In this document: piece by piece, positions 2,357 to 15,650 of the stretch
Position numbering within the stretch: the first letter of the stretch is position 1
Layout of the letters: every line of letters begins with the position of its first letter
Source of the DNA: a virus
Length of the DNA stretch: 42,483 bases
Direction: 5' to 3' (one strand)
IMG/VR virus record: IMGVR_UViG_3300035701_006044
Coordinates: 1-42,483 of that record
Made by a program: the position numbers and the translations under genes
Notes under the pieces: generated by a model
What the model saw: the letters and a program-made list of their open reading frames with translations, nothing else
The model's database searches: none
Told to the model about the DNA's origin: nothing

Positions 2357-2433
2357 TGGTAGCGGGGACGGGATTTGAACCCGTGGTCTCGGGCTTATGA
2401 GGCCCGCATGTTACCAGGCTACACCACCCCGCG
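2357..2433 (-). tRNA. tRNA-Met (CAT), initiator-like acceptor end
   Basis: The minus strand folds into a full cloverleaf with loop CTCATAA (anticodon CAT), a normal TTCAAAT T-loop and an encoded CCA. The first acceptor pair is C1.U72, a mismatch like the C1.A72 of bacterial initiators, and the acceptor begins CGCGGGG as in E. coli tRNA-fMet. Against pure initiator identity, the anticodon stem has G29 and G30 but C31-G39, and the D-stem has U11-A24 as in elongators. Confidence 0.92.
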
Positions 2434-2438
2434 TCATA

Positions 2439-2510
2439 AGCCACCTGTCGGACTTGAACCGACAACCTACGGTTTACAAAACCGTCGCTCTGCCTTTGAG
2501 CTAAGGCGGC
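2439..2510 (-). tRNA. tRNA-Thr (TGT)
   Basis: Cloverleaf with acceptor GCCGCCT/AGGTGGC, anticodon stem ACGGT/ACCGT and loop TTTGTAA, giving anticodon TGT for ACA codons. CCA is not encoded, unlike most of its neighbours, so the 3' end needs CCA addition. Its 5' end directly abuts the CCA of the next tRNA-Thr, with no spacer. Confidence 0.93.
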
Positions 2511-2585
2511 TGGAGCCACCCGTCGGAATCGAACCGACAGCCTACGCTTTACGAAAGCGTCGCTCTACCGTTGAGCCAGGGTGGC
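2511..2585 (-). tRNA. tRNA-Thr (CGT)
   Basis: Cloverleaf with acceptor GCCACCC/GGGTGGC, anticodon stem ACGCT/AGCGT and loop TTCGTAA, giving anticodon CGT for ACG codons. CCA is encoded and is immediately followed by the first base of tRNA-Thr(TGT). The two share most of the D-arm and T-arm sequence, which suggests a tandem duplication. Confidence 0.93.
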
Positions 2586-2648
2586 ACGGGAGGCGCCTCC
2601 GGGCCGGGATGGCGAACCATCACGTTGCCACGGCAGCATTCCTCCCTG

Positions 2649-2724
2649 TGGAGCGGGAGATGGGAGTTGAACCCACGACGGCCAGCTTGGAGGGCTGGCG
2701 CTCTGCCAACTGAGCTACTCCCGC
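2649..2724 (-). tRNA. tRNA-Gly (TCC)
   Basis: Cloverleaf with acceptor GCGGGAG/CTCCCGC, anticodon stem CCAGC/GCTGG and loop CCTCCAA, giving anticodon TCC for GGA codons. CCA is encoded. The T-arm GTGGG/CCCAT carries the usual TTCAACT loop with one G.U pair. Confidence 0.93.
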
Positions 2725-2853
2725 GTGAGAGGCCACCCGAGCCCTCGACGGGTCTGTTACCATCCCCGCCGCCTGGTTTTCTACTCACCCACGGTCGATC
2801 GCGATTCGCCGGGGTGCGGGGTGGAGGCACCAGGGGCACCCACTTCCTCTCCC

Positions 2854-2930
2854 TGGTGGGCGAAGGCGGACTCGAACCGCCGACCTCTTGCTTATCAGGC
2901 AAGCGCTCTAACCAGCTGAGCTACACGCCC
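2854..2930 (-). tRNA. tRNA-Ile (GAT)
   Basis: Cloverleaf with anticodon stem CTTGC/GCAAG and loop CTGATAA (anticodon GAT, ATC codons), and encoded CCA. The acceptor GGGCGTG/TTCGCCC has a U6.U67 mismatch and a G7.U66 wobble. The body resembles the neighbouring tRNA-Val, including the shared 3' end TTCGCCCACCA, suggesting a common origin. Confidence 0.92.
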
Positions 2931-2994
2931 ATAAGGCCCCACACCCTCGGTCGCCGCCGGACGCAATGCCGGTGAGGGTCCGAGTCGGAGCCTT

Positions 2995-3071
2995 TGGTGG
3001 GCGAAGGCAGGATCGGACTGCCGACCTCCTGCTTGTAAGGCAGGCGCTCTGACCGGCTGAGCTACTCGCCC
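2995..3071 (-). tRNA. tRNA-Val (TAC) with a non-canonical T-loop
   Basis: Cloverleaf with anticodon stem CCTGC/GCAGG and loop CTTACAA (anticodon TAC, GTA codons), and encoded CCA. The T-loop is TCCGATC rather than TTCGATC, so position 55, normally U modified to pseudouridine, is C. This would disturb the G18-psi55 tertiary pair. All stems are otherwise sound. Confidence 0.9.
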
Positions 3072-3481
3072 ATTGGTTTCCAGAGGTGTGCCGTTAAGCC
3101 AAACGCTCTTAGGGCGCTTGGAGGCATCGGGTTCACAGGGGTTCTTGGCAACCCTGGTCGGATTCTCAGGAGCCGTTTCAGTTTCCATCCCCGGCCCCCT
3201 ACTTCCGATTCCCCTCAGACCCCGGGCTCCTCTCGTACTACCGGGGCAAACCTCCTCGCATGGCTTATGGCGCTCTGATGCAAACGGACCAGAAGGAACC
3301 CTTCGATAGTACGAGCTCCGATCCGCCGCCGCACGCCACGCGCTTTCCCTGCGGCTCTAAGCCCCCGTTACCAAGAGGGGGGACTCTTTGGGCCCGGCCA
3401 CGGCGCGACCGTAGTCCTACCCATTGCCGCTGGCGACTCCTTAGATGATGGGGTCCTGGCCCTACATCCCAACTGGAAACC
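3072..3481 (-). ncRNA. Gene-free structured stretch carrying a sarcin-ricin-loop mimic
   Basis: These 410 bases separate tRNA-Asn from tRNA-Val, while the other gaps in the cluster are 0-130 bases. I see no convincing gene or further tRNA. On the minus strand, bases 3239-3228 read AGTACGAGAGGA, the invariant 12-mer of the 23S/28S rRNA sarcin-ricin loop, closed by a CCCCGG/CCGGGG helix (3241-3246 with 3220-3225). Other possible hairpins are CCAAGCG/CGTTTGG, CAGGGTT/AACCC and AGTCCCCC/GGGGGCT. The segment 3305-3315 is complementary to 3232-3242 and could pair with the loop instead. Being inside a tRNA cluster, it is probably co-transcribed and processed with the tRNAs; that is inference. Confidence 0.55.
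3220..3246 (-). ncRNA. Sarcin-ricin-loop-like hairpin
   Basis: Six-base-pair helix (3241-3246 with 3220-3225) enclosing T, the 12-mer AGTACGAGAGGA, and GC. In E. coli 23S rRNA the same order is helix, U, the identical 12-mer, CC, helix. The adenosine attacked by ricin and sarcin (A2660 in E. coli) and the bulged G (G2655) are both present. The helix sequence differs from rRNA, so this is not a simple rRNA fragment. Confidence 0.6.
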
Positions 3482-3557
3482 TGGCTGCCGGAGAGGGGCT
3501 CGAACCCCCGGCATCGAGCTTAACAGGCTCGCGCTCTTCCAACTGAGCTATCCGGCA
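3482..3557 (-). tRNA. tRNA-Asn (GTT)
   Basis: Cloverleaf with acceptor TGCCGGA/TCCGGCA, discriminator G, anticodon stem CGAGC/GCTCG and loop CTGTTAA, giving anticodon GTT for AAC codons. CCA is encoded. It is the first tRNA of the cluster in transcription order. Confidence 0.93.
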
Positions 3558-11329: not shown

Positions 11330-11923
11330 CTACTTCGCCTTCCAATGCCCCTCGGCACCCTTGACCAGGACCGGCGTCAGGTACTCGTCGATCAAGGCGA
11401 CGAATTTGTCGCCGTAGACCTTCTGCACCTCTTCGGGCATCATGTTCGTCGTGACGACCACGGGCATTAGCCGCTCCAGCCGGTATCGCATGGCTTCCCT
11501 GATCAGCGACCTCGGCCAATCCACCCCCGCGCTCTGCGCCTCCGTCCCCAAGTCATCGAGAACCACCAGATGGGCGGTTCGGAATCCCGCATATCGGTTG
11601 TCCTTCCACCTCCAGCCGTCCACCAGCTCGAATGCCTCCAGCCAGAAAGCGTTGCACCGATGACCCAGGACCTCCTTGCAGCAGAGAGCGGCAAGGCAAG
11701 ACTTCCCCGACCGGTAGGGGCCGAAGATAAGGAGGCCCCTCCCCTTCTCGATGTTCTCTTTCATCGCCGCGAGGTACGTCTGAATCTTCAGCCGGTAGGA
11801 CGCAACTCCGGGGATATTCTCCGGAAGGGCCTCCAGGCTCGCCCCCCACTTCCCCTCCGGGACATTAGCATCCAGCCAGTCTCCGCGCTTCACGCTCTGC
11901 GGTTTCCAGATTGGCACCCTCAT
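11330..11923 (-). CDS. dnaC: DnaC-like helicase loader ATPase
   Basis: An AAA+ ATPase of 197 residues with Walker A GPYRSGKS (68-75), Walker B VVLDDLG, and a sensor-1 segment VVVTTN, the arrangement of DnaC/IstB family loaders. These proteins deliver the DnaB ring to the origin. Its start overlaps the end of the upstream initiator gene by 59 bases, reproducing the O-P gene order of lambdoid phages, where P performs the loading step. It is therefore likely the partner of the DnaB-like helicase at 5.8-7.2 kb. The C-terminus is complete. Confidence 0.88.
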   Translation of the reverse strand: MRVPIWKPQSVKRGDWLDANVPEGKWGASLEALPENIPGVASYRLKIQTYLAAMKENIEKGRGLLIFGPYRSGKSCLAALCCKEVLGHRCNAFWLEAFELVDGWRWKDNRYAGFRTAHLVVLDDLGTEAQSAGVDWPRSLIREAMRYRLERLMPVVVTTNMMPEEVQKVYGDKFVALIDEYLTPVLVKGAEGHWKAK

Positions 11924-13370
11924 GGATCAACCTCGCTACAATCTCTTCCTTCTCCGCGTACTTCTTCTCCCGCACCTTCCCCTCCGGCGTGTTCCCCGAC
12001 CACTCGTCCACTCGCCCGCTCCCCCCCACCCCTCCCTGAACCTCCCGCACCAGCCGCTCGAACAACCCGATATTCTTGAGCAAGGACACCGTGGGCCTCG
12101 TCCCCCACTTGAACCTGGCCGGGAGCCCGTCGCTCCACCCCGCGTAGATGTGGTCGATGACCTTTTTCATCATGTCCGCGCCGATCCTCTCGGCCTTCAG
12201 CCACGCGATCCGCCCCTTGACCCCCGCGAGGTCTGCCACCCCCCAGGACGGCGCTCCCTCCCCCCGCCATGTCGCCTTGTACCGGTCGTTGAAGTACTTG
12301 ACCGCGTCGTTGCAGTTCCACTCGTTAGGGTCTTTTTCGGTATCGCCCTTCTTCTTCTTGGAAATCCGACCGTCGTCCTCGTCGTCACTTCCCGGCATCA
12401 GAATCTGGCCGCCCGACCTCTCGCTCTTGAAGGGAGCAGCGCAAAGCGTTTGCGGAGCCTTTCTCCCTCCCGTGGCCCCGGGCGCTGAGCCCCCCCCGGA
12501 ATCCGGCGGGGAACCGGCCTGGCCTTGGGCGGGTGCCGGGGATGCCCCCCATCCCCGCTGGTCCGGGTTGCCCTTTGGGGGCGACGCGTCCTGGGGGCAA
12601 CCAGCGGCCCCCGAAGCGATTTCAGAAGAAGCAGCGTTTGAATGAATTGTTTCCTTGAGGACGATGCCTTTGGCTTTGGCTTTGGCTCCTGTCTCTGCTT
12701 CTTCTTCCCCCTTCTCTTCAGCTGCCTTGAGCACGAGATGCGGTGTCGCCTCGGGCGACAACGCCCCTTTAGGGCTCTGCTCAAGATCATCTACTCCCCT
12801 ATTATCTATTCCAGAACGAACCGCTTTTCGCAAACCATTGTCGTCAATAGGACTTGCGCCGATTTTTGAGGCGGTAGGGGGGGACAATTTTGTCCGGGGT
12901 ACCCCGGACATTTTTGTCCGGGGTGGGGGGACATTTTTGTCCGGGGTCACACTTCCGCTTGTGGCTTCGGGGGGAGAGGTCCGCAATTCCTTGTTGGCCT
13001 TCTGGACGGTGGAGTAGAAGCTGTTGATGCCGTCTGCCCCGTAAATATCGAGAGGCTCCAGGATGAATATCCTGTTCGTCCTCCCGGCGCAGTTCTCCAC
13101 CTCGATCACCTTGGCCTCTTCCAGCTCCCGGATGTGCCTCCTCAGCGTTCTCTCGTCCATTCCCCGCAGCTTAGCGATGAGCGCCAGGCTGTGCTTCCCC
13201 TCTCGATCCGCCCCCTCCAGGAGGTCGAGGAGATGCAGGGTACGGTAGGCTCCATCGGAAAGGCGTTCGTCCCGGACCTGGGGACCGTAGACCATGACGA
13301 ATGGCCGGAGCCCCGTGCCCTTCCGGGCGATGATCACCCCCCCTTGTTCCTTGTCAGCATCCCAATCCAT
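11865..13370 (-). CDS. Replication initiator-like winged-helix protein (lambda O-like position)
   Basis: The 501-residue product has an N-terminal winged helix-turn-helix (about 38-91; ALIAKLRGMDERTLRRHIREL is the core, longer than quoted motifs of neighbours), a long disordered Pro/Ser/Lys/Ala-rich middle (about 125-335), and a compact C-terminal domain likely to contact other replication proteins. It overlaps the helicase loader gene. Three 19-base iterons lie inside the coding region at 12882-12947, next to an AT-richer stretch, as in lambda O where ori lies inside the gene. I infer that it binds these iterons. The ATG at 13370 follows AAGGA with seven-base spacing. It could alternatively be a DnaD-type primosome protein. 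Confidence 0.75.
   Translation of the reverse strand: MDWDADKEQGGVIIARKGTGLRPFVMVYGPQVRDERLSDGAYRTLHLLDLLEGADREGKHSLALIAKLRGMDERTLRRHIRELEEAKVIEVENCAGRTNRIFILEPLDIYGADGINSFYSTVQKANKELRTSPPEATSGSVTPDKNVPPPRTKMSGVPRTKLSPPTASKIGASPIDDNGLRKAVRSGIDNRGVDDLEQSPKGALSPEATPHLVLKAAEEKGEEEAETGAKAKAKGIVLKETIHSNAASSEIASGAAGCPQDASPPKGNPDQRGWGASPAPAQGQAGSPPDSGGGSAPGATGGRKAPQTLCAAPFKSERSGGQILMPGSDDEDDGRISKKKKGDTEKDPNEWNCNDAVKYFNDRYKATWRGEGAPSWGVADLAGVKGRIAWLKAERIGADMMKKVIDHIYAGWSDGLPARFKWGTRPTVSLLKNIGLFERLVREVQGGVGGSGRVDEWSGNTPEGKVREKKYAEKEEIVARLIHEGANLETAEREARRLAGC
12882..12947 (-). repeat. Three iterons, candidate replication origin
   Basis: On the plus strand GGACATTTTTGTCCGGGGT occurs at 12906-12924 and 12929-12947, and GGACAATTTTGTCCGGGGT at 12882-12900. 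Repeat spacing is 24 and 23 bases. Each repeat contains the palindromic half-sites GGACA/TGTCC. They encode the repeated PDKN/PRTK segments of the initiator. An AT-richer tract follows on one side (about 12780-12870). The arrangement matches an iteron-type origin within an initiator gene. Confidence 0.65.
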
Positions 13371-13444
13371 GTTTCATTCCTTCAGGCAGTCCTTGCCCCG
13401 CGCCCCGGTCACCTGGATTGCAGGGCATCCATCGCCGTCTTCCC

Positions 13445-13462
13445 GCGCCGGTCACTCGGCGC
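13445..13462 (-). promoter_or_regulatory. Hairpin in the initiator gene leader
   Basis: A 6-bp perfect stem GCGCCG/CGGCGC with a six-base loop sits about 75 bases upstream of the initiator start. Flanking it, CAGGCAG and CTGCCTG (about 13384-13390 and 13463-13469) could form an outer stem. A role as attenuator or operator is possible. Confidence 0.4.
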
Positions 13463-13470
13463 TGCCTGGA

Positions 13471-13518
13471 AACAAAACAGGCCGCAACCTCTTTCGAGGC
13501 GCGGCCTGGTTGTTTTTT
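13471..13518 (-). terminator. Terminator-like hairpin upstream of the initiator operon, possibly bidirectional
   Basis: CAGGCCGC (13478-13485) pairs with GCGGCCTG (13501-13508), with an inner CCTC/GAGG stem. On the minus strand it is followed by TTTTGTTTCC; on the plus strand by GTTGTTTTTT. It would end the second structured RNA described below. The plus-strand U-tract is better, but no plus-strand gene needs it. Confidence 0.6.
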
Positions 13519-13717
13519 CGGGGGCTACGCAGGGCGGATAGTGGGAAGATTCCCTACTTCGCCCCCTCGGAGTCGGTTGGCAACCGACACCGGTTTCTTC
13601 GGTGCTGTTATTCTTCGCTCCCACTATCCTTGCTTCCCTTCTCCGTTCTCAGGCCGTTGCCAGCGGCCATCTTGTTTCGCTTGTCAGGGTTTGTCCGTTG
13701 CCACGCTTCCCCCCGAC
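13471..13717 (-). ncRNA. Candidate structured RNA 2 (three-way junction)
   Basis: No gene is visible. A perfect 11-bp stem, 13536-13546 with 13619-13629 (GGATAGTGGGA on the plus strand), encloses two hairpins: GTCGGTT/AACCGAC (13572-13588) and CACCG/CGGTG (13588-13604). A further hairpin GGCCG/CGGCC lies at 13652-13668, and its loop is complementary to the apical part of the first hairpin. A terminator-like hairpin closes the unit. The start is estimated from a weak promoter at 13724-13753. Confidence 0.5.
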
Positions 13718-13723
13718 ACCCCT

Positions 13724-13753
13724 ATTCTTGCTCCCCTGTCTGAAAGCTGTCAA
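13724..13753 (-). promoter_or_regulatory. Weak candidate promoter for structured RNA 2
   Basis: Minus strand TTGACA (13753-13748), 18-base spacer, AAGAAT (13729-13724). The -35 box is perfect and lies directly after the terminator of unit 1, but the -10 box and spacing depart from the other promoters. Confidence 0.35.
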
Positions 13754-13765
13754 GGGGTTTCCAGC

Positions 13766-13800
13766 AAAAAAAAAGACCGCCTCCCGAAGGGAAGGCGGCC
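13766..13800 (-). terminator. Strong rho-independent terminator
   Basis: On the minus strand a GGCCGCCTTCCC/GGGAGGCGGTC type stem with a TTCG tetraloop (13800-13775) runs directly into nine T residues (13774-13766). It stops transcription coming from the methylase side or from the promoter at 13969-13996. Confidence 0.9.
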
Positions 13801-13962
13801 TGATGGTTATAGGGGGCTACCGGGGCAGCGCAGGAGAACCCGCGTAACCCCCCGCAGACGGCGTACCTTGGTGAAGGTGACGCCGAGATCCGAGCTTCGT
13901 TGCTGCGCTGCATCTTCTTCCTCCGGGAACCGTCACCACGATTCCCATCTCAACTCCCAGCA
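13766..13962 (-). ncRNA. Candidate structured RNA 1 (pseudoknot), about 200 nt
   Basis: The segment runs from a promoter-like sequence (13969-13996) to the strong terminator (13766-13800). Stem 1 is GGTGACG/CGTCACC (13931-13937 with 13876-13882). The 9-mer GCAGCGCAG at 13911-13903, inside the stem 1 loop, is perfectly complementary to 13833-13825, which lies 3' of stem 1, so the two stems form a pseudoknot topology. Small reading frames exist (for example from ATG on the minus strand near 13949 and 13913) and the second has a GGAGG before it, but that frame runs through the terminator. Confidence 0.5.
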
Positions 13963-13968
13963 CCCCCT

Positions 13969-13996
13969 ATCATAGGCGAGAGGGTCACCGAGTCAA
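13969..13996 (-). promoter_or_regulatory. Promoter of the N16 family upstream of structured RNA 1
   Basis: Minus strand TTGACT (13996-13991), 16-base spacer, TATGAT (13974-13969), located just after the methylase stop codon. The spacing equals that of the other promoters in the window although no gene follows. Confidence 0.65.
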
Positions 13997-14014
13997 GGGG
14001 CCTACACCAAGAAT

Positions 14015-15283
14015 TTATGCTTTTTCGATCTTGATCCCAGGAAAGGCCGTCGCCATGCGTTCCAGGCAAACCGCAACGTACTGGGGCACGATCTCAATCG
14101 CCCGGCATCTCCTGCCCATGTTCTCGCTGGCGACGACCGTCGTACCCGACCCGCTGAAGGGCTCGAAAACAATCGCTCCGTTCACCGAAGAGTTAGCCAG
14201 ACTTCTGGATACAAGCTCAACCGGCTTCATTGTGGGATGTTCTTCGCTCCGACTCGGGCGATCAATATCCCAGACGTCGTTTTGCTTCCGATCCTCGACA
14301 TCCTTTATTCTCGGCGCATCCCCCCTCCATCCATACCAAATAGGCTCGTACTTTGTGTGGTAGTCCTTCCTCGAAAGAACGGCGCAGTTCTTGTTCCAGA
14401 TGATGGTCGAAGACCAATGAAACCCCTCGTCCTCCAACAGCCTCATGATCAGCCCCCACTCTTGAGCAGACATCGCCATGTACAAAATTCCCCCCGGCAC
14501 CAGGGCCTCATATATCCGGGCGCAAAAAGACTCCGCGAAGGGGTCGAATTTTTCTCCGAGATTGTCGTTTTCAATCTTCCTTTTCTTGTAGGCGGGATGG
14601 TCGTCCTTCCCGTAATCCACGTTCCATGGTGGGTCCGTCCAGCAGATGCCAGCCCTCTCCCCGGCCATCACCCTTTTGACGTCCTCCTCCTTCGTGGAGT
14701 CACCGCACAGAAGAAGATGGTCTCCAATTTTCCAGAGGTCTCCTACCCCAGTTTGCCATTTTTTCAGAAGAGCGTCCGCGTGGTCGAGGTCGGGCTCCGC
14801 GTCCTTGCCCTTCCCGATGTGGTCCTTCTTCCCCTTCTCGATGAGAAGCTCGAGGTCCAGGTCGTTGAGCCGGAGCTGCTCACACAAATCCGGGAAGTCG
14901 TTGTTGGCCTGCCCCAGAACATCCTCAGCGGTCTCGGTCCACACCCCCTGGATCAGGTGGTTGTTGGCCGTGAGGTTCGCCAGCCGCTCCTTGTCCTCCG
15001 GCCAGTCCACGATCCGAATGGGGAATCGGTCCCCCTTCGGGGTGAGGATGGAAAAGCCCACCACCTCGTCCCCGACGATCTTGAGGTCGGGGCCGAACTC
15101 CGCCTTGAGGGCGCTCACCCGTTGATGCCCTGCAAACATCTGCTTCGTCCGCTCGTTGAAGCAGATCCCAGAGATGTCGCCGAGCTCCCGGACGCTGACC
15201 TGCAAGCCCTGCAAGGATTCCGCGTCGATCCGCCTCGGGTTGTAGGGCGCGGGATTGAGATCCTCGATGCTTCCGATCTTCAT
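14015..15283 (-). CDS. ParB-like domain fused to a DNA N6-adenine/N4-cytosine methyltransferase
   Basis: The 422-residue product begins with a ParB/Srx-like domain (AGHQRVSALK, 51-60), followed by a methyltransferase with catalytic TDPPW (216-220) before the AdoMet-binding FEPFSGSGTT (373-382), the order of beta-class enzymes. Such fusions are frequent in phages and modify phage DNA, probably against host restriction; target sequence unknown. The ATG at 15283 follows AAAGGAACAGGC; a longer frame from 15346 is rejected because it would overlap the next gene upstream and lacks such a site. A terminator and two structured RNAs follow downstream. Confidence 0.9.
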   Translation of the reverse strand: MKIGSIEDLNPAPYNPRRIDAESLQGLQVSVRELGDISGICFNERTKQMFAGHQRVSALKAEFGPDLKIVGDEVVGFSILTPKGDRFPIRIVDWPEDKERLANLTANNHLIQGVWTETAEDVLGQANNDFPDLCEQLRLNDLDLELLIEKGKKDHIGKGKDAEPDLDHADALLKKWQTGVGDLWKIGDHLLLCGDSTKEEDVKRVMAGERAGICWTDPPWNVDYGKDDHPAYKKRKIENDNLGEKFDPFAESFCARIYEALVPGGILYMAMSAQEWGLIMRLLEDEGFHWSSTIIWNKNCAVLSRKDYHTKYEPIWYGWRGDAPRIKDVEDRKQNDVWDIDRPSRSEEHPTMKPVELVSRSLANSSVNGAIVFEPFSGSGTTVVASENMGRRCRAIEIVPQYVAVCLERMATAFPGIKIEKA

Positions 15284-15311
15284 GCCTGTTCCTTTCGTCA
15301 AGGTCCGTCTT

Positions 15312-15650
15312 CTATTGATCCCCCCCATCATCGGGGTCATCCTCATCCCAGTCCTCGTCCTCCTCTTCGTCCTCCCAGACGTCTTCCTCCTCCGCCCCCT
15401 TCCTCCCCCATGCCCGTGCCTCTACGGCTTCGGCGATCTTGGTTTCCTCCTCGGGATCCTTCTCATCCACGATCATCCAAAAGAGAAGGTCTTCGTCGAG
15501 ACCGAACTGCTGGTGGATGCGTTGGGCCGCCTCCCGGGCGAACGTGCGAACAGCGTAGTCCGCCTTCAGAACGGGAGCCAACTGGCTCGCATCGGCAACG
15601 GACGGGGCCTTGATCTCCAACGCATCGAGAAGCCTGTCAATGGCTGACAT
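15312..15650 (-). CDS. Acidic hypothetical protein
   Basis: The 112-residue product has a helical N-terminal part (about 1-75) and a strongly acidic C-terminal tail made almost only of Asp, Glu and Trp (about 87-112). Acidic tails of this kind occur in DNA mimics and in proteins that bind basic partners, but nothing specific is visible here. It overlaps the start of the methylase leader region only in a non-used frame, and its own start overlaps the upstream gene by 14 bases. It sits directly before the methylase, so a restriction-related role is conceivable but unproven. Confidence 0.65.
   Translation of the reverse strand: MSAIDRLLDALEIKAPSVADASQLAPVLKADYAVRTFAREAAQRIHQQFGLDEDLLFWMIVDEKDPEEETKIAEAVEARAWGRKGAEEEDVWEDEEEDEDWDEDDPDDGGDQ

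Follow-up and report, generated by a model that had tools for sequence, protein, structure and literature searches.

The pyrBI attenuator of Escherichia coli, in which the leader reading frame contains the terminator (PMC4824070), responds to the level of UTP by way of polymerase pausing. The put element of phage HK022, which is close to an early promoter and precedes terminators and early genes, is about 70 nt long, consists of two stem-loops and acts on RNA polymerase (PMC9378689). In phage T4 the leader of a replication gene, gene 32, contains an operator in which a pseudoknot of about 28 nt is followed by less structured UUAAA repeats and which is bound by gp32 (PMC535899). Abundant noncoding RNAs are also known in phages, for example in mycobacteriophages (PMC5712189); lambda makes the short OOP RNA, antisense to cII, near its replication genes (PMC12197685), and GOLLD and ROOL are large ornate bacterial RNAs (PMC12286853).

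The RNA described here, termed unit 2, is structured, about 200 nt long and well supported. It is absent from the catalogue searched (Rfam) and holds a fixed place beside the replication genes of large uncultured phages. We analysed the 42.5 kb IMG/VR virus record IMGVR_UViG_3300035701_006044, and by the window we mean this whole stretch of 42,483 nucleotides. The large, well-annotated genes near the RNA region are on the minus strand, and the surroundings are as follows.

14015-15346: DNA methyltransferase gene (Pfam N6_N4_Mtase), the upstream neighbour of the RNA region
13371-14014, minus strand: RNA region, flanked by the methyltransferase and initiator genes
11865..13370, minus strand: replication initiator gene (phrog_270, E 7e-7)
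11330..11923, minus strand: DnaC-like helicase loader gene (phrog_50, E 7e-17)

A class II ribonucleotide reductase gene comes after the initiator and loader genes. We also noted seven tRNA genes (Met, Thr, Thr, Gly, Ile, Val and Asn) downstream of the replication genes, at 2357-3557 on the minus strand of the window.

Searching with the initiator protein identified L002 (IMGVR_UViG_3300035701_001952), which has both unit 2 and the neighbouring unit 1 at the equivalent place, and pattern scans added a near-identical copy, L092, together with the distant L100 (a 122-kb record) and L106 (a 109-kb record), which carry unit 2 alone. Unit 2 is therefore present in the window and in three other uncultured phage lineages, four distantly related lineages in total. 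In all four it lies upstream of the initiator, the DnaC-like loader and ribonucleotide reductase, and the upstream neighbours differ. No family was matched by Rfam covariance models at gathering or relaxed thresholds, the best scores being far below threshold. Among cultured phages, a DNA search of 50,697 phage records gave no match to the RNA, and in protein searches the initiator had no match and the loader matched just remote relatives (<60% identity). A pattern scan of bacterial and archaeal genomes returned eight matches, all judged to be chance when read; viral scans with other motifs returned just the known lineages plus chance matches, and no convincing further copy of unit 2 was found within the relatives' records.

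The features of unit 2 are listed below; P denotes its stems and T1 its 3' hairpin.

13724..13753, minus strand: promoter TTGACA-N18-AAGAAT, with a weak -10 (AAGAAT)
13724-13470, minus strand: unit 2 RNA
13683..13717, minus strand: P0, the 5' hairpin GUCGGGG/CCCUGAC, retained in L002; L100 and L106 have another hairpin, GGGGC/GCCCC
13652..13668, minus strand: P1 hairpin GGCCG(CUGGCAA)CGGCC, invariant in the four lineages, loop complementary to the P4 loop
13618..13629, minus strand: P2 5' arm, with an invariant GUGG, an in-frame GUG at 13624 and six positions changed on both sides
13588..13604, minus strand: P3 hairpin CACCG/CGGUG, in which two pairs stay as G-U in L106
13573..13587, minus strand: P4 hairpin UCGG(UUGCC..)CCGA, invariant, UUGCC being complementary to GGCAA of the P1 loop
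13552..13566, minus strand: pseudoknot 5' strand GGGGGC-GAA-GUAGGG
13536..13547, minus strand: P2 3' arm UUCCCACUAUCC
13520..13534, minus strand: pseudoknot 3' strand CCCUGC-GUA-GCCCCC, with both partners altered in one pair, a single partner altered in another and the rest invariant
13470..13508, minus strand: T1, CAGGCCGCG...GCGGCCUG with a UUUUGUUU tail (hairpin 13508-13478), arms invariant in the four lineages

It can be seen that, from 5' to 3', a 5' hairpin and P1 are followed by P2 enclosing P3 and P4, pseudoknot strands around the P2 3' arm, an A-rich linker and T1. P2 is a perfect 11-bp stem in the window (13619-13629 with 13536-13546) and has 11-12 bp across the lineages; it is crossed by a 12-bp pseudoknot helix, GGGGGC-GAA-GYNGGG with CCCUNC-GUA-GCCCCC. 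The complementarity of GGCAA (P1 loop) and UUGCC (P4 loop) in all lineages suggests a kissing contact. The U tract of T1 is poor in L100 and L106, both of which carry a second hairpin, T2, downstream. A T run follows T1 on the opposite strand as well (GGTTGTTTTTT; window 13501-13518, plus strand), so that T1 may also stop antisense transcription.

Unit 1 lies immediately upstream and has the following features.

13969..13996, minus strand: promoter TTGACT-N16-TATGAT (10/12 matches); L002 has TTGACT-N16-TATAAT at equal place and spacing
13924..13947, minus strand: 5' hairpin UGGGAAUCGU/ACGGUUCCCG; L002 has a hairpin of other sequence at the equal place
13825..13911, minus strand: perfect 9-bp crossing stem, GCAGCGCAG (13911-13903) with CUGCGCUGC (13833-13825)
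13811..13853, minus strand: G/C stem of the 3' pseudoknot, GGGGGGUUAC/GUAGCCCCCU (13853-13844 with 13820-13811); CUGGGGG/CCCCCAG in L002
13774..13801, minus strand: intrinsic terminator, 12 bp, then a T run

The crossing stem, which can also be written GCAGCGCAG/CTGCGCTGC (13903-13911 with 13825-13833), retains its core GCGCAG/CUGCGC in L002. Unit 1 shares the topology of unit 2, namely a G5/C5 hairpin with a loop that pairs to a strand upstream, and then a terminator, and a 3' module common to both consists of two 14-nt repeats with nearly equal spacing (294 and 292). Given these shared features, unit 1 is probably a diverged tandem copy that would work by the same logic. It was found solely in the window and in its nearest lineage, L002, with no significant match in the 109 and 122 kb records (L106 and L100).

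A first-pass annotation had proposed two tandem promoter-RNA-terminator units near the replication genes, and all of their elements are indeed present on the minus strand, with covariation in the relatives. For unit 1 the promoter, pseudoknot stems and terminator were found as described, as were the perfect P2 stem around two hairpins, the GGCAA/UUGCC loop match and the 3' hairpin (13508-13478) of unit 2. The unit 2 promoter does have TTGACA at 13753; its -10, AAGAAT, makes it weaker than had been stated. Both units are real, although just unit 2 is deeply conserved, and the pseudoknot of unit 2 and a reading frame that overlaps it had been missed. That the units exceed chance is borne out by fold stabilities relative to shuffled sequence (z-score -2.4 in unit 1, -5.1 in unit 2), by the two promoter-like sites in the RNA region itself (three in the stretch scanned) against 0.1 expected, and most of all by compensatory changes.

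Those changes came from the covariation check in related phages that had been named beforehand. Base pairs were counted on a manual alignment of the four lineages (window, L002, L100 and L106), as MAFFT misaligned P2. In P2 both partners have changed at six positions and a single partner at one, and 47 of 48 cells are paired, with a single mismatch; when arms were swapped, foreign arms paired at 0.77 as against 0.98 for own arms. In the inner pseudoknot helix one pair has changed on both sides (U-A, C-G, U-G) and another is A-U/G-U. No variation across the four lineages is seen in P1, P4, the kissing loops or the outer pseudoknot helix; being invariant, these are plausible candidate pairings that stand outside the covariation support. 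The stretch from P1 to T1 is 82-88% identical among lineages, compared with 63-79% (DNA) for the loader and initiator genes. Compensatory base-pair changes in independent lineages, the general mark of a conserved structured RNA, are thus seen in unit 2. Judging from these alignments we conclude that unit 2 is a real structured RNA, because its pairing has been maintained by matching mutations in distant phages, and the G-U pairs on the minus strand point to a minus-strand RNA rather than a DNA structure.

In L002, L100 and L106 a reading frame of 97-110 aa runs from a GUG in P2 through the pseudoknot, T1 and T2 (L002 5326-5619; L100 4008-4340; L106 420-728; the corresponding window frame is at 13409-13624, minus strand), so the earlier description of the region as having no gene was not strictly true. 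The end of the frame is close to the start of a downstream operon gene in all three, and its putative start GUG belongs to the invariant GUGG of the otherwise covarying P2. After T2, L002 and L106 differ at 5, 8 and 15 first, second and third codon positions, with 8 synonymous codons, and because these differences are mostly at third positions this part of the frame is probably translated; L092 and L002 differ here by a 3-nt indel. In the RNA core, L100 and L106 differ at 5, 11 and 3 positions, with no third-position bias. Taken together with the coding signal after T2, this indicates that the core is conserved as RNA and that transcripts passing the hairpins are apparently used. In L002 and L106 the interval that separates the RNA from the coding part contains no in-frame ATG, GTG or TTG; in L106 a CTG beside a good ribosome-binding sequence is another possible start. 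The window's own frame is broken or shortened, having six A instead of seven ahead of T1 and lacking the 3' part. A programmed frameshift at this A run, considered separately, would be possible in the window and finds no support in the other lineages.

The unit promoters appear, on soft evidence, to be the sole strong ones ahead of the replication operon. There are nine promoter-like sites (at least 10/12 matches) on the window's minus strand; seven stand 28-126 nt before a reading frame, and the other two are the unit promoters, 383 and 626 nt ahead of the initiator, the next listed gene start. In none of the four lineages was a promoter-like site found between the RNA and the initiator in the operon direction. 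The unit 2 promoter is TTGACA-N17-CAGAAT in L002 and TTGACC-N16-TATAAT in L100 and L106. As a side observation, near-consensus promoters of the TTGACA-N16-TATANT type stand directly before genes elsewhere in the window (minus strand, 28367, 27925, 26740, 24377, 21578 and 7202), and promoters of this phage as a rule have a spacing of 16.

Our tentative first choice, which we hold at slightly less than even weight, is that unit 2 serves the replication operon, made up of the initiator, loader and ribonucleotide reductase genes, as a structured leader and gates read-through into it; we favour this reading because of the fixed position, the lack of another promoter and the coding signal beyond the hairpins. 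Host RNA polymerase would start at the unit promoters and, with the pseudoknot formed, the GUG and ribosome-binding region would be buried and transcription would end at the 3' hairpins. Were the fold prevented or opened, for which the candidate triggers are a protein, a ligand and a ribosome that loads at the GUG, ribosomes or an altered polymerase would pass the hairpins and the replication genes would be made. The first-pass suggestion that the units might control replication has support only from position, unit 2 lying upstream of initiator, loader and ribonucleotide reductase in four of four lineages. Against a leader, no clear fold competes with the strong unit 1 terminator, the overlapping frame of the window itself is broken or shortened, and most of the same facts would also fit a terminated RNA acting in trans. 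A riboswitch with a competing antiterminator was considered and rejected, as inspection of the four lineages revealed no conserved, exclusive antiterminator pairing, the sole candidate being the GGCCGC carried by the 5' arms of both P1 and T1.

The closest competitor to the leader, possible though in our view doubtful, is that units 1 and 2 are independent RNAs of about 190 and 250 nt that accumulate early and act in trans by binding a protein or RNA of the host or phage, with terminators that just set their ends and a proximity to replication genes that reflects shared inheritance. The units' own promoters and terminators would suit this, as would the compact fold and extreme sequence conservation, the retention of termination potential by different means (T1 in the window, T2 in L100 and L106), the frequency of tandem paralogues among small RNAs and the phage precedent noted above (PMC5712189). 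However, the link to the same operon holds in four of four lineages despite changes of upstream neighbours, no other promoter was found for the operon, the coding signal past the hairpins implies that read-through is useful, and few conserved unpaired stretches are available for antisense pairing.

The next alternative concerns replication initiation. Origins of the lambda O type have iteron repeats within the initiator gene. Two to three iteron-like repeats of 22-24 nt with an A-rich core lie within the initiator gene in all four lineages (window 12878-12947; L002 6355-6426; L100 4695-4731; L106 1539-1595), 0.5-1.2 kb downstream of the RNA, and form a probable origin of this type, so that read-through would transcribe the origin too. 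Transcripts from the units would point at the repeats, and transcription from the unit promoters might enter the origin and activate or prime it, as at the lambda origin. We consider it improbable that this is the role of the units, as RNA and repeats are separate, an origin would need no more than the repeats, no skew inflection was seen at the RNA/repeat locus, and mere transcription does not need conservation at the RNA level. That the region holds no functional RNA, and is either GC-rich intergenic sequence in which a terminator stands among inverted repeats that arose by chance or a stretch conserved on account of the overlapping frame, can hardly be credited: GC-rich DNA folds easily and the frame overlaps unit 2 in three lineages, but the compensatory changes contradict it, the core differences (5, 11, 3) lack third-position bias, the loops contain frame-breaking indels, and conservation exceeds that of neighbouring genes.

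If the leader reading is true, the RNA would provide control at the RNA level of the step from early expression to replication, and its defined helices make the gating idea directly testable. We regard it as rather unlikely that the RNA typifies a new class of phage riboregulator, in which a kissing-loop and pseudoknot RNA would bury the codon from which a short frame starts and crosses the operon's own terminators, and the opening of the fold would switch on translation, read-through, initiator synthesis and downstream origin transcription together.

In its features unit 2 resembles the pyrBI attenuator, HK022 put and the T4 gene 32 operator without belonging with any of them. GOLLD and ROOL, some of which are phage-borne, are several times longer than unit 2 and have Rfam models, whereas unit 2 is shorter and matches none. 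Like lambda OOP, unit 2 would be a short phage RNA made near replication genes, although OOP is antisense and the unit 2 RNA is in the operon direction and highly structured. It resembles put in being a phage RNA element close to an early promoter and ahead of terminators and early genes; size and architecture set it apart, for it spans about 200-250 nt and has a pseudoknot and a 3' hairpin of its own in place of two stem-loops. Like the T4 operator, it would place a pseudoknot in a leader before a phage replication gene, but the unit 2 pseudoknot is far larger and encloses the putative start codon, and no UUAAA repeats before a start codon were found in the region. The parallel with pyrBI would lie in a putative short frame that passes through the hairpin of an intrinsic terminator before the operon is reached (in L002, L100 and L106, with a candidate start codon and, for L002 against L106, a coding signal after T2; in the window it is broken), and a close-following ribosome would suppress termination; here, in contrast to pyrBI, a long pseudoknot that also has a candidate kissing contact would bury the putative start codon.
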